Assembly: GCF_000384815.1 (NCBI RefSeq)
Contig: NZ_ARQF01000021.1
Location: 434,001 to 498,000 of the forward strand
DNA from: Halodesulfovibrio aestuarii DSM 17919 = ATCC 29578
GTDB lineage: Bacteria > Desulfobacterota > Desulfovibrionia > Desulfovibrionales > Desulfovibrionaceae
Direction: 5' to 3'
Length of the DNA stretch: 64,000 bases
The notes beneath the pieces were generated by a model. The model was given only the letters and a program-made list of their open reading frames with translations. It was not told the origin of the DNA and searched no databases. Below, piece by piece: positions 9,211 to 58,362 of this stretch. A program made the position numbers and the translations under genes. Positions within the stretch are counted from its first letter, which is position 1, and each line of letters begins with the position of its first letter.

Positions 9211-9306
9211 CTCACAAATTTCTGATTAGGCGACGGGGACACACATAACGGCGCGGGATAGCCTCCTGCGCCACTTAAAGAACTTTTGAACACAGGTAGT
9301 TATTTC

Positions 9307-11433
9307 ATGTTGAAAGAAGCATACACAACCAAAGAGCTTATGGTCGCGCTTACGATTAAGGCTGAATCGTCGATTACTCGCCGTGCCAAGCGTGAGTCAT
9401 GGCAAGCCCGCCCGCGTGTAGGGCGTGGCGGCGGTAGCGAATGGCTTGTGGCTTCTATGCCGGATGTGACCCGTACAGCGCTTGTGTCTGCGGAAGCCCG
9501 CCTTGCGGAGCAACGGACAGTGAAGCCGACTGTACCGACCCTTGCTACTGCTGGCGTAAGTGATGTGAAGCGTAAGAAAGCCTTAGCTCGTGCGGATATG
9601 GTTGCACTATATACAGATTGGCTTGCAAAGGCCGGACACGGAACAAAGGCAACGGCGCGTGATTCTTTTATACAAGCGTATAAGGGCGGTGCGTGGCCTC
9701 AGCTCCTTGAAGCATTGGGTTCTAAAGTTTCGTGGAAATCAATTGAGCGCTGGAAGGTCGGGCTTCGTAAAAATAAGACAGTTGTGGCTCTCGTAGACAG
9801 ACGTGGAGCAGGAAATGAGCAGCGTGCAAAAATGACTGAGGCACATGCAAAACTCCTTCTTAACGCGGTGCTTCAGCCAAACCATCCAACTGTTAGCTCT
9901 GCTATTCGGATGGCTACTTCAGCTATGAATGCTCAGCAGCTTGAAATACCCGCAGAGCGTACTATGCGTCGCTTCATTGCAATGTGGAAGGAAACCAACT
10001 TTGGCACTTGGGTTTATACCCGTGAAGGTAAAAAGGCGTGGAACGACAAAGCGGCTTTTTATATTGAACGCGATTACAGCTTGATTGAGGTAGGTGACAT
10101 AGTGGTCGCTGACGGGCATGTCCTCAACTTTGAGACACTTAACCCGTGGACAGGTAAAGCGCAGCGCATGGAACTCATTATGTGGTATGACATGAAATCA
10201 AACTGCCCGCTCGGGTGGGAAATCATGCCTACAGAAAACACCCAGTCTATTGCGGCAGCGTTCAGACGTGCGGTTATGACACTGGGTAAATATCCTCTTA
10301 TTGCCTATCTTGATAACGGTAAGGCGTTTCGCTCTAAATATTTCAACGGCGTAGACTTTCGCCAGACCGGAATAGCTGGGTTATTCCAAGATCTTGGTAT
10401 TCACACAATTTTCGCATGGCCTTACCACGGGCAATCCAAAACAGTTGAACGTTTTTTCGGCACATTGCATGAGCTGGAACAATGGGTGCCTTCTTATGTC
10501 GGTAACTCAATTGATGCAAAGCCCGCCCGCCTTAACAGGGGGGAACCTTTGCACCGTAAGGCATATGAGGCAGCCGGAGGACGCCCGCTTACCTTGGAAG
10601 AAACGCACTACATAGTTGCCAAATGGATAGACGATTACATTTCGCGTCCACAGCGCGGTCATCTTAATGGCAAGACTCCCGCAGAAGTTTTTATGCAAGG
10701 CAAAGGGGCAGGAGTTGATGAAACTAAGCTTCGTCATTTGATGATGGCAAAGGCGGTTCGGCAAGTTAGGCGTGAAGGAATCCGCTTCCTTAACGAGCGC
10801 TATTACGACGGGATGCTGCATGGCAGAACCCATCCGGTACAAATTAAGTATGATTTGCAAGACCCCTCATACATTCTTGTCTACAGCGAGGATGGCGGTG
10901 AGTTTCTTTGTAAAGCGCAGCGTCAGAATGCGTTGCACCCTGCCGCAAGCCTGCTCGGTACGGATCAGCACCGAGAGGAGCTGAAACAGGCAATCGACTT
11001 GAAGAAGCAACAAGAAAAAGACGCTTCTAGTATTGCCCGTCAAGTTCTTGCGGACTCGCTTGCGGATCAACGTAACCGTATGATTGTCGCTCAAAATGAG
11101 AAAATTGAGCCGAAGGCGCAAGAGGCTGCTCCTCTTTCACAGGCCAAGGTTCTCAGCATTGAGTCCGCCAAAAAGAAAGCGCAAGCCAAGCGCGAACAAG
11201 CACCAAGTTATGTCCCGCCTGCTGAGAAGCCTGAGATTGTTACCGAACTGGATAAGTACGATTACCTGTTCATGCTGTCAGTGAAAGAAGGGATTGTCCT
11301 GCGTGAAGCTGATCGGGAGTGGATGGAATATTACGAGAGCACCGAAGAGTACAAGCAGGTTGCTGCACCGCGTTACGAGCGGCTCCGTAAGCTTTATGAG
11401 AAGAACCGCCCGTGCGTGGCGCAAGCAAACTAA
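9307..11433 (+). CDS. Mu-type DDE transposase (MuA homologue)
   Basis: A 708-residue transposase that would cut and join the prophage ends for replicative transposition. An N-terminal winged-helix Mu DNA-binding domain (YTTKELMVALTIK...) is followed by helical domains and an RNase H-like core. The catalytic triad is visible as D269 (VADGH), D336 (YLDNG) and E381 (TVERFF). The first two fall at the same numbers as in Mu A, and the third is 11 residues earlier than Mu E392. A Mu-type beta-barrel and a charged C-terminal region, likely contacting the MuB-like partner, complete it. ATG 9307 is preferred to TTG 9286. Confidence 0.95.
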   Translation: MLKEAYTTKELMVALTIKAESSITRRAKRESWQARPRVGRGGGSEWLVASMPDVTRTALVSAEARLAEQRTVKPTVPTLATAGVSDVKRKKALARADMVALYTDWLAKAGHGTKATARDSFIQAYKGGAWPQLLEALGSKVSWKSIERWKVGLRKNKTVVALVDRRGAGNEQRAKMTEAHAKLLLNAVLQPNHPTVSSAIRMATSAMNAQQLEIPAERTMRRFIAMWKETNFGTWVYTREGKKAWNDKAAFYIERDYSLIEVGDIVVADGHVLNFETLNPWTGKAQRMELIMWYDMKSNCPLGWEIMPTENTQSIAAAFRRAVMTLGKYPLIAYLDNGKAFRSKYFNGVDFRQTGIAGLFQDLGIHTIFAWPYHGQSKTVERFFGTLHELEQWVPSYVGNSIDAKPARLNRGEPLHRKAYEAAGGRPLTLEETHYIVAKWIDDYISRPQRGHLNGKTPAEVFMQGKGAGVDETKLRHLMMAKAVRQVRREGIRFLNERYYDGMLHGRTHPVQIKYDLQDPSYILVYSEDGGEFLCKAQRQNALHPAASLLGTDQHREELKQAIDLKKQQEKDASSIARQVLADSLADQRNRMIVAQNEKIEPKAQEAAPLSQAKVLSIESAKKKAQAKREQAPSYVPPAEKPEIVTELDKYDYLFMLSVKEGIVLREADREWMEYYESTEEYKQVAAPRYERLRKLYEKNRPCVAQAN

Positions 11434-11443
11434 AGGATGAGTT

Positions 11444-12148
11444 ATGAGACGTGATGTTTTTATTGAAACCCGCAATGTGCTTGAATTCCGCCAGAAGGTG
11501 GGCTTCTTGGAAGACAACCTTAACGGTGAGCCGGGCTTTGCGCTTGTTTTCGGTCAGGCCGGACGAGGTAAAACAGAAACAACCCGCAACTATCACGCAA
11601 TGTCAGGAGGGGTGTTTCTGCGGGTGATGCAGGGATGGACTCAGAATTCGTTCCTGCAGGAGCTTTGTTATCAGGTTTGCGGCTTGCGCCCTCGTAACTC
11701 AGCAGCATGTAAGACGAGAATTATTGAGGCGTTGGACGCGTCCCCACAGACAATATTTGTGGATGAGGCTGACCGTCTGCACGTGGATCGTATTGAAGAC
11801 TTGCGCGATATCTTTGACACAACCGGAGTGCCAGTTGTGCTTATTGGTGAGGAAGAGTTACGGGGCTTGCTTGGAACTCGTCGCCGTATTTGGAGCCGCG
11901 TAAAGCAGGTTGTTGAGTTCGGTGCTGTTGCTGAAGAGGACGTAGCTTTCTTAGCGGATGAGGCAGCAGGGTTGAACATTTCACCTGAGGCGTGTGCTCA
12001 AATAGTGCGGTATGCCGACGGGGATTTCCGCCTCGTTTGGAGCTTTGTAGGGCACTTGGAAAAAGCGGCAAGAGCGCATGAAGTACATGACGTGAACGTT
12101 GCCCTTGTAGCTAAAGTTGCAAAACAAGTGGCTAGCTGGAGGCGGTAA
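11444..12148 (+). CDS. MuB-like AAA+ target-selection ATPase
   Basis: A 234-residue AAA+ ATPase with Walker A GQAGRGKTET and Walker B TIFVDEADRL. It follows the transposase gene by 10 bases with ribosome site AAAGGATGAG. MuB homologues form ATP-dependent filaments on target DNA, attract the transposase and give target immunity. Mu B itself has 312 residues. This version lacks the N-terminal HTH domain and belongs to the shorter AAA_22 type found in many Mu-like phages. Confidence 0.9.
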   Translation: MRRDVFIETRNVLEFRQKVGFLEDNLNGEPGFALVFGQAGRGKTETTRNYHAMSGGVFLRVMQGWTQNSFLQELCYQVCGLRPRNSAACKTRIIEALDASPQTIFVDEADRLHVDRIEDLRDIFDTTGVPVVLIGEEELRGLLGTRRRIWSRVKQVVEFGAVAEEDVAFLADEAAGLNISPEACAQIVRYADGDFRLVWSFVGHLEKAARAHEVHDVNVALVAKVAKQVASWRR

Positions 12149-14089: not shown

Positions 14090-14189
14090 AATATGCGAAA
14101 CTGTCCGCCCAGTGCTAAATGGGGTGCAACCACGGGCAGTCACCGGAATGTGGCGGTTCCGGTCTGATGAGCAGCCAGAGGAAAGATTT

Positions 14190-57057: not shown

Positions 57058-57087
57058 AAAAAAAGCGACTTCATTTGAAGCCGCTCA
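57058..57087 (-). terminator. Terminator after the HesB-like cysteine gene
   Basis: On the minus strand GAGCGGCTTCA/TGAAGTCGCT pairs with one mismatch, followed by seven T residues. Confidence 0.82.
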
Positions 57088-57102: not shown

Positions 57103-57414
57103 CTAGCCGCAACTGCCGCCACAACTGCTGCAACCGCCGCCGCCACCAAGTGGATTCTCGGACTCAATGACAAAGCCCTGATAGCGGATGTCTACAGTAA
57201 GAGCGCCTGTTTTGTCGAGCAGATCCTTGTTAATACAAAAAGTGTATGGATCAGCGGAAAAAACAGTGTCGTCGTCGTTTGGTTCATCCATTGCCAGTGC
57301 GAGATTAGGGCCACTGCAGCCGCCTGGAGCAAGATAAATGCGAATGGATGCAAGTTCTCTATCTTCAAAATGCGCATCGAGTGATTTTCGAGCATCGTCA
57401 GTCATTGTGAACAT
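57103..57414 (-). CDS. HesB/IscA-like protein, cysteine paralogue
   Basis: A 103-residue IscA/HesB-type protein with Cys33 in LAPGGCSGP, Cys in FCINK, and a glycine-cysteine tail GGGGGCSSCGGSCG. A-type proteins of this family carry or scaffold Fe-S clusters, but the pattern differs from classical IscA (CGCG end), so metal or selenium/sulfur handling is also possible. Starts at ATG 57414 behind GGAGG. The following gene upstream on the same strand is a selenocysteine paralogue with UGA at the position of Cys33. Confidence 0.82.
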   Translation of the reverse strand: MFTMTDDARKSLDAHFEDRELASIRIYLAPGGCSGPNLALAMDEPNDDDTVFSADPYTFCINKDLLDKTGALTVDIRYQGFVIESENPLGGGGGCSSCGGSCG

Positions 57415-57549: not shown

Positions 57550-57583
57550 AAAAAAAGGCGGCTTCAAGATGAAGCCGCCTTTT
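57550..57583 (-). terminator. Terminator after the HesB-like selenoprotein gene
   Basis: AAAGGCGGCTTCA and TGAAGCCGCCTTT form the stem (loop TCT), followed by seven T residues on the minus strand. Confidence 0.88.
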
Positions 57584-57598
57584 ATAAGCTAAGATCGT

Positions 57599-57913
57599 CT
57601 AGCCGCAAGAACCGGAGGAACAACTGCCACAAGAGCTGCCGCCGCCAAGAGGGTTCTCAGACTCAACAACAAAGCCCATGTAAGAAAGGTCGATGGTAAT
57701 TTTACCAGACTTTTCAATGAGGTCTTTATTAATGCAGAAAGTGAAATCTTTCTCTTCAAATACGGAATCTTCTTCGTTTGGCTCATCCAGAGCCAATGCC
57801 AATCTTGGGCCGCTTCAGCCGCCCGGAGCCAGATAGATGCGGATAGGAGATTTTTCCTTATCAGCAAAGTACGCCGCAAGTTCTTTGTGGGCGTTTTCAG
57901 TCAATGTAAACAT
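57599..57913 (-). CDS. HesB-like selenoprotein with in-frame UGA (selenocysteine 33)
   Basis: A 104-residue protein if UGA at 57815-57817 is read as selenocysteine. ATG 57913 follows GGAGG. The first 32 codons (MFTLTENAHKEL ... YLAPGG) align without gap to the adjacent cysteine paralogue, and UGA stands exactly where that paralogue has Cys33 (GGUSGP versus GGCSGP). After it the homologous frame continues to GGGSSCGSCSSGSCG. A SECIS-like stem lies 17 bases after the UGA. HesB-like selenoproteins are known from other anaerobes. The shorter reading from TTG 57802 is an artefact of treating UGA as stop. Confidence 0.9.
57778..57796 (-). promoter_or_regulatory. Bacterial SECIS-like stem-loop
   Basis: On the minus strand TTGGCTC-TGGAT-GAGCCAA is a perfect 7-bp stem with a 5-base loop carrying the adjacent GG often seen in bacterial SECIS apical loops. 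It begins 18 bases after the UGA codon. SelB binds such elements to deliver Sec-tRNA. Confidence 0.75.
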
Positions 57914-58362
57914 TGAATTTCCTCCACGTAGGTTGTTCTTATCAAGTAAAGGTAGTTATCGGCTTTGTCAATAGAAATGGATTTTGTGTATCGGAATTTC
58001 AGATGTGAAGTACTTGGTTCTCTACTTGTTTTACGTATGCTTCGTAGTTGTCTGTATGCTTCAACGAGAATAGAAAACTCGAGAATTGTTTTTCAGGATT
58101 TCATGGTAGCATAAACAGAGCTTTTAGTAATTGGGGGGCAGGTACGAGAGGGAGAAGATTGTTTTGATTGCCAATAGCTATACCATAAAAATAAGGTTCA
58201 TGTAGGTAATGTCAACCAGCTCCTATGGGTAACAAAAAAGGTGGCAATGTCCCCGTGGGGTGGGTTGCAGAAAGCACGTGGAGTATGTTTCTTTTATGCA
58301 AGAAAAAAGATAAGATGTAGTCTTAATCTTTCATGGAAGAAAGCAGAACAAAGGATACATAT
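57914..58362. other. Gene-free region upstream of pyrR
   Basis: No coding region is convincing. A GC-rich patch GTCCCCGTGGGG at about 58249-58260 can form a small hairpin. The PyrR gene is not preceded by an obvious anti-antiterminator sequence of the Bacillus type. It presumably holds the divergent promoters of pyrR and the selenoprotein gene. Confidence 0.45.

Follow-up and report, generated by a model that had tools for sequence, protein, structure and literature searches.

The locus described here raises the question of whether an in-frame UGA codon in a gene of the HesB/IscA family is read as selenocysteine (Sec) and, if so, what protein the cell makes of it and how the gene came to stand beside a similar one that carries cysteine (Cys) at the same site. 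The gene lies in a stretch of 64,000 nucleotides from Halodesulfovibrio aestuarii DSM 17919 (NZ_ARQF01000021.1, positions 434,001 to 498,000), hereafter the window, whose numbering is used unless stated otherwise. Read through its UGA, it encodes a protein with 65% identity to the product of its neighbour and similarity on both sides of residue 33, and the UGA falls at the exact position of the neighbour's Cys33, just as an initial annotation of this DNA had claimed. An in-frame UGA aligned to the Cys of homologues, with similar flanks on either side, is one of the marks of a selenoprotein gene. The features of the region, all on the reverse strand, are as follows:

57599..57913, reverse strand: HesB/IscA-like selenoprotein gene, 104 residues with UGA33 taken as Sec, 119.2 bits against NF038090
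57913 and 57601-57599, reverse strand: ATG start and TAG stop of this gene, as read from the frame
57919..57925, reverse strand: GGAGGAA, putative ribosome-binding-site-like motif 5 nt 5' of the ATG, read directly
57815..57817, reverse strand: UGA codon 33, Sec or Cys in 44 of 44 aligned family members
57778..57796, reverse strand: SECIS-type hairpin UUGGCUC-UGGAU-GAGCCAA with a 7-bp stem and a 5-nt loop, starting 18 nt after the UGA within the coding sequence
57780-57794, reverse strand: conserved hairpin core GGCUC/GAGCC, the inner 5 bp
57553..57583, reverse strand: terminator-like hairpin with T-rich tail, 3' of the Sec gene and between it and the Cys gene
57103..57414, reverse strand: Cys paralogue, 103 residues, 104.5 bits against NF038090
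57318-57316, reverse strand: Cys33 codon of the paralogue, aligned with UGA33
57063..57086, reverse strand: terminator-like hairpin 3' of the Cys gene

The initial annotation had called the Sec gene hidden and had predicted a truncated product of 67 residues from standard gene calling; indeed, with table 11 alone the open reading frame (ORF) called here has 67 residues and starts at an internal TTG. The word hidden is apt for such naive gene calling but not otherwise, as the family is modelled by NCBIfam NF038090 and papers from 2006 and 2007 list HesB-like selenoproteins of Desulfovibrio.

The window also harbours elements of other kinds. The ORF list reads as a Mu-like prophage at 9286-38579, in which a MuA-transposase-like ORF (9286-11433) and a MuB-ATPase-like ORF (11444-12148) are followed by terminase-, portal- and tail-like ORFs, and a type II hammerhead ribozyme (Rfam) lies inside it at 14093-14180 on the forward strand (58.5 bits, gathering score 37). 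Six identical 77-base tRNA-Pro (TGG) genes are found on the reverse strand, two before the prophage region (5147 and 6852) and four after it (41429, 42511, 42823 and 43134).

The genes for selenocysteine synthesis and insertion, whose absence the initial annotation had named as fatal to its reading, are all present in the organism's own genome. Profile searches returned selA at 629 bits (cut-off 267.9), selB at 386 bits (cut-off 242.25) and selD at 338.5 bits (cut-off 125), and tRNA-Sec (selC) scored 84.6 bits against a cut-off of 47, with the anticodon TCA according to ARAGORN. The genome thus encodes SelA, SelB, SelC and SelD, a second mark of a selenoprotein gene. The selD match (locus L050, contig C21 of the genome, 309978-310904) itself holds one in-frame TGA, and SelD is therefore probably a selenoprotein here too.

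A third mark is a SECIS hairpin 3' of the UGA. The initial annotation had placed a 7-bp SECIS-like stem 17 bases downstream; the stem is there and its core is conserved, but it starts at 18 nt. Folded alone, the hairpin of the window does not stand out from shuffled sequences (z -1.3 to -1.7 over three stretches, with 9 to 19 of 200 shuffles folding equally well), and we therefore relied on conservation among relatives. From 120 loci of the bacterial family we obtained 204 distinct copies of the gene (of 205), 99 with TGA, 93 with Cys and 12 with Ser, Glu, Ala or Asp at the site. The hairpin and codon comparison used 58 of the 99 UGA copies and 81 of 91 Cys copies after thinning at 90% identity, two of the 93 Cys copies having been dropped by score before thinning and the 12 copies with other residues excluded.

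Across the 58 UGA copies, which share less than 90% identity with one another, the sequence following the UGA can be aligned gap-free. Pairing of the core GGCUC-UGGAY-GAGCC, or of a variant, is possible in all 58 but in only 2 of the 81 Cys copies, and the Cys copy of the window is unable to form it. The core is part of the minimum-energy fold in 52 of the 58 against, again, 2 of the 81, while the 54-nt stretch takes another minimum-energy fold in the other six UGA copies. This conservation of the inner 5 bp in UGA copies is what raises the stem above chance. The outer two base pairs of the 7-bp stem are less constant (unpaired in 24 and 10 of the 58 copies), and overall 91.6% of the alignment cells of the stem pair. 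Two-sided changes occur at three of the seven stem pairs, a value that none of 500 shuffles reached, and the number of pair types was reached by 22 of 500, in a shuffle control that ignores relatedness. Loci L082 and L134 replace a G-C pair of the stem by A-U, and in the deviating UGA copy L140 the core can pair through GCC opposite GGG, a double change that turns Glu into Gly, with a different structure as its minimum-energy fold.

Codon usage over the hairpin points the same way. The UGA copies use GCT for Ala at +8 (57/58), CTG for Leu at +9 (58/58) and GAG for Glu at +11 (57/58), whereas the Cys copies encode the same amino acids with GCC (49), GCG (14), GCT (11) or GCA (7), with six Leu codons, and with GAG (32) or GAA (23). 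Fold energy over +12..+48 is only slightly lower in Sec copies (mean -11.74 vs -9.92, median -10.90 vs -10.40, p 0.0015); the Cys copies have the higher G+C (0.68 vs 0.57) despite their weaker fold energy. Position-specific pairing and codon use are a far clearer signal than fold energy, and synonymous codons frozen in place together with a hairpin restricted to UGA copies are as predicted for a selenocysteine insertion element. The hairpin is accepted here on this conservation rather than on the fold of the window alone.

The distribution of UGA copies among relatives agrees with that of the machinery. An NF038090 match at E <= 0.001 is present in 139 of 149 genomes of the bacterial family, and 119 genomes were scored as having one that contains a UGA. 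A genome was scored UGA-positive on a 'one TGA' flag in a match of at least 84 bits, which admits one genome (G068, 84.5 bits) just below the cut-off of 85 and leaves out weaker flagged matches (G001, G026, G027, G107 and others); the 52 matched genomes without a TGA row among the matches listed in the first search were searched again, and in the fetched loci the TGA was verified to be codon 33. For selA, a partial match (G095) was counted as absent, and five selA-negative genomes were assigned by elimination. Over all 149 genomes, 112 have both the UGA copy and selA, 11 selA only, 7 the UGA copy only and 19 neither (Fisher p 4e-11), and among the 121 that are at least 90% complete the corresponding numbers are 105, 5, 1 and 10 (p 2.5e-10), the UGA copy thus occurring in 105 of 110 genomes with selA versus 1 of 11 without. 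The tests assume an independence that the genomes do not have, so that the p-values are too favourable; the direction of the association is clear. Six of the seven genomes with a UGA copy and no selA match over the cut-off are less than 90% complete and the seventh consists of about 820 contigs, so that selA is likely missing from these assemblies through absent sequence. No UGA copy was counted in five of the 110 nearly complete selA genomes. It is extremely improbable that a near-cognate tRNA instead places Trp, Cys or some other residue at the UGA independently of selenium: the UGA copy follows selA across genomes, the hairpin is retained where the codon is UGA and almost never where it is Cys, and most of the other paralogues have Cys at this site.

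Could the UGA be a real stop, leaving a pseudogene, a truncated protein or only the 67-residue product from the internal start? The table-11 ORF would fit such a reading, which we nevertheless regard as very improbable. All 99 distinct TGA copies of the relatives keep it at the same codon, and the frame stays open beyond. All eight same-genus comparisons give a dN much smaller than dS for the part beyond the UGA (e.g. 0.031 vs 0.195), with dN/dS of about 0.13 to 0.27 and dS above 1 in three of the eight, and the invariant residues Cys95 and Cys103 lie in this part too. Selenocysteine decoding is, judged from these comparisons of sequence, the best fit by far, and UGA33 is almost certainly read as selenocysteine.

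The gene is a well-supported member of an already known protein family and no new kind. HesB is among the known selenoproteins in PMC1242214, and a HesB-like selenoprotein family is likewise listed in PMC13188914 and PMC9312934. HesB-like selenoproteins are given for D. vulgaris and D. desulfuricans in PMC1794560, where the Cys form of Desulfitobacterium hafniense shows a remnant element, and DVU_1382 appears as a HesB family member with a TGA in PMC1914089. The window gene shares with these Desulfovibrio proteins the HesB family and the in-frame TGA; it differs in genus (Halodesulfovibrio), and the two are likened at the family level. Both window proteins exceed the NF038090 (IscA_HesB_Se) cut-off of 85, the Sec protein with U given as C, and we saw no difference from that family. 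The second selenoprotein model, TIGR01911 (HesB_rel_seleno), shares the motif (USGP at the Sec site of the window protein, UxGP in the table of PMC13188914), but its cut-off of 66.35 is missed by the Sec protein (47.2 bits) as well as by the Cys paralogue (40.9 bits). Neither protein reaches TIGR00049 (37.1 and 30.7 bits, cut-off 58.8) or the cut-offs of the IscA and SufA families. Pfam PF01521 is matched by the read-through Sec protein (29.8 bits, cut-off 26.3) and not by the paralogue, which falls below the cut-off; at E <= 0.001, the same model found nothing in a six-frame search of the genome.

Iron-sulphur (Fe-S) carriers of the A-type have as their hallmark a Cys near residue 35 and a C-terminal pair of Cys. 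None of the 44 aligned sequences deviates at position 33 (Sec or Cys), Cys95 or Cys103, and Cys98 is conserved in at least 90%, so that residue 33 and the C-terminal cysteines give the pattern of such a carrier, with a C-terminal spacing in the window protein of CxxCxxxxC, not CxC. The predicted structure (mean pLDDT 83.7, pTM 0.70, tail 91-104 below 50) has the fold of an A-type carrier: a profile search against PDB chains matched IscA-like chains, and Foldseek returned ten chains at E <= 0.001, six of them IscA or SufA and one each 1nwb, 2apn, 9a4q and DsrR (2k4z), with TM of about 0.5-0.65 for 1x0g (IscA with [2Fe-2S]), 1r94, 1s98 (IscA), 2d2a (SufA) and 2k4z. The solved IscA structures and E. 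coli SufA among these chains share the fold (E 2.5e-6 to 9.9e-5, TM about 0.54-0.64) at 16-27% identity, but have Cys where the window protein has Sec. At E <= 1, TIGR00049 matches nothing in the genome except the Sec/Cys pair; the same search picked up matches in 9 of 14 control genomes. Because of the IscA/SufA-like fold, the kept residues and these sole matches, we think that the pair is probably the cell's A-type Fe-S carrier in two forms, one with selenium and one with sulphur, and that the Sec protein is a probable Fe-S carrier.

An alternative is that the protein is a thiol/selenol redox or metal-binding protein built on the same fold rather than a cluster carrier. The review PMC13188914 thinks most uncharacterised selenoproteins to be redox proteins, and DsrR of Allochromatium (2k4z) has the same fold. 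According to PMC11097638, mutagenesis and 75Se labelling led to the HesB-like selenoprotein of Methanococcus, whose function is called not clear; the same paper mentions as an unpublished observation that nitrogen fixation was unimpaired in the hesB-like mutant. We count this result against an Fe-S function, which is assigned here by homology. Against the alternative stand the retention of position 33 and the C-terminal cysteines on an IscA/SufA fold and the pair's place as sole TIGR00049 matches of the genome at E <= 1, and we consider it unlikely.

The explanation that we hold with high confidence as a whole is the following. SelB and tRNA-Sec would decode UGA33, as the presence of the machinery genes and of the hairpin suggests, and the hairpin inside the coding sequence would assist them. 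The product would be a HesB-like A-type Fe-S carrier, to which the fold and the residues point, in which iron or an Fe-S cluster may be bound by the Sec33 selenolate and by Cys95, Cys98 and Cys103. The Cys paralogue would be its selenium-independent counterpart, perhaps with a transcript of its own, and may stand in when selenium is short.

Compatible with this explanation is a further one, in which the UGA would double as a selenium switch, with translation ending at residue 32 when selenium is scarce and the Cys paralogue, perhaps under selenium-dependent control, then taking over. Selenium-dependent switching between Sec and Cys isoforms has been described in Methanococcus maripaludis (PMC11097638), and a terminator-like site follows each of the two genes, the number of such sites in the region being in itself no evidence (2, against a mean of 1.4 in shuffles). 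The pairing of neighbours is common as well: a paralogue lies within 1 kb of 75 of the 99 Sec copies, with a median gap of 161 bases, as a Cys copy downstream (56) or upstream (14) or a Ser copy upstream (5). The side-by-side pair that the initial annotation had offered as a natural comparison is thus present here without being special to this genome. On the other hand, the promoter scan of the region gave nothing above chance (3 sites vs 2.9 in shuffles), and for 24 of the 99 Sec copies the DNA examined shows no paralogue closer than 1 kb. We regard the switch as possible but less likely than not.

The 12 of the 204 copies in which Ser, Glu, Ala or Asp takes the place of Sec or Cys are paralogues near a Sec gene (loci L098-L102, L036, L038, L039, L041, L044, L048 and L108), and these may therefore have lost their metal site.

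How the pairs arose is a separate matter. Of 142 loci, among them overlapping ones and ones with a Cys copy only, 97 contain a homologue of pyrR, the neighbour gene in the window, and the chromosomal place of the HesB-like genes is therefore probably old. Among the nine genomes of the window's genus, that of the window included, six place the Cys copy downstream of the Sec copy and three upstream, and the two arrangements fall in different parts of the tree with moderate support. The Sec rows do not form one clade: well-supported branches force at least 12 label changes (101 of 190 rows), or at least 15 in a larger tree (161 of 202 rows), in an alignment of 92 columns with some long branches. 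An AU test on the 101 of 190 rows rejects a single Sec clade (p 0.00046), with groups set by residue and not by tree and after the first tree had been seen. Gene conversion between paired copies left no clear sign in 72 same-locus pairs: codon identity was 0.53 in the N-terminal part, against 0.46 between loci, and 0.50 vs 0.51 over +13..+21, and the own Cys copy was among the closest 20% for 29 of the 72. Repeated duplication, old conversion or the poor resolution of 92 columns could therefore each account for the mixture in the tree. The scatter of the Sec rows suggests several separate origins or reshufflings of the pairing, and we lean towards this view rather than towards one ancient duplication behind the Sec/Cys neighbours.

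No description of tandem Sec/Cys HesB pairs came up among the open-licence PMC papers that our searches listed, and PMC2682760 does not treat the subject. If recurrent pairing is true, it would imply repeated selection for both a selenium and a sulphur form of one Fe-S carrier. The paired and apparently recurrent arrangement offers many natural comparisons between Sec and Cys, a number of them in genera that include laboratory strains, and if a selenolate sits in the metal site of an Fe-S carrier beside a thiolate twin, it would become possible to ask what selenium gains for the handling of the cluster.
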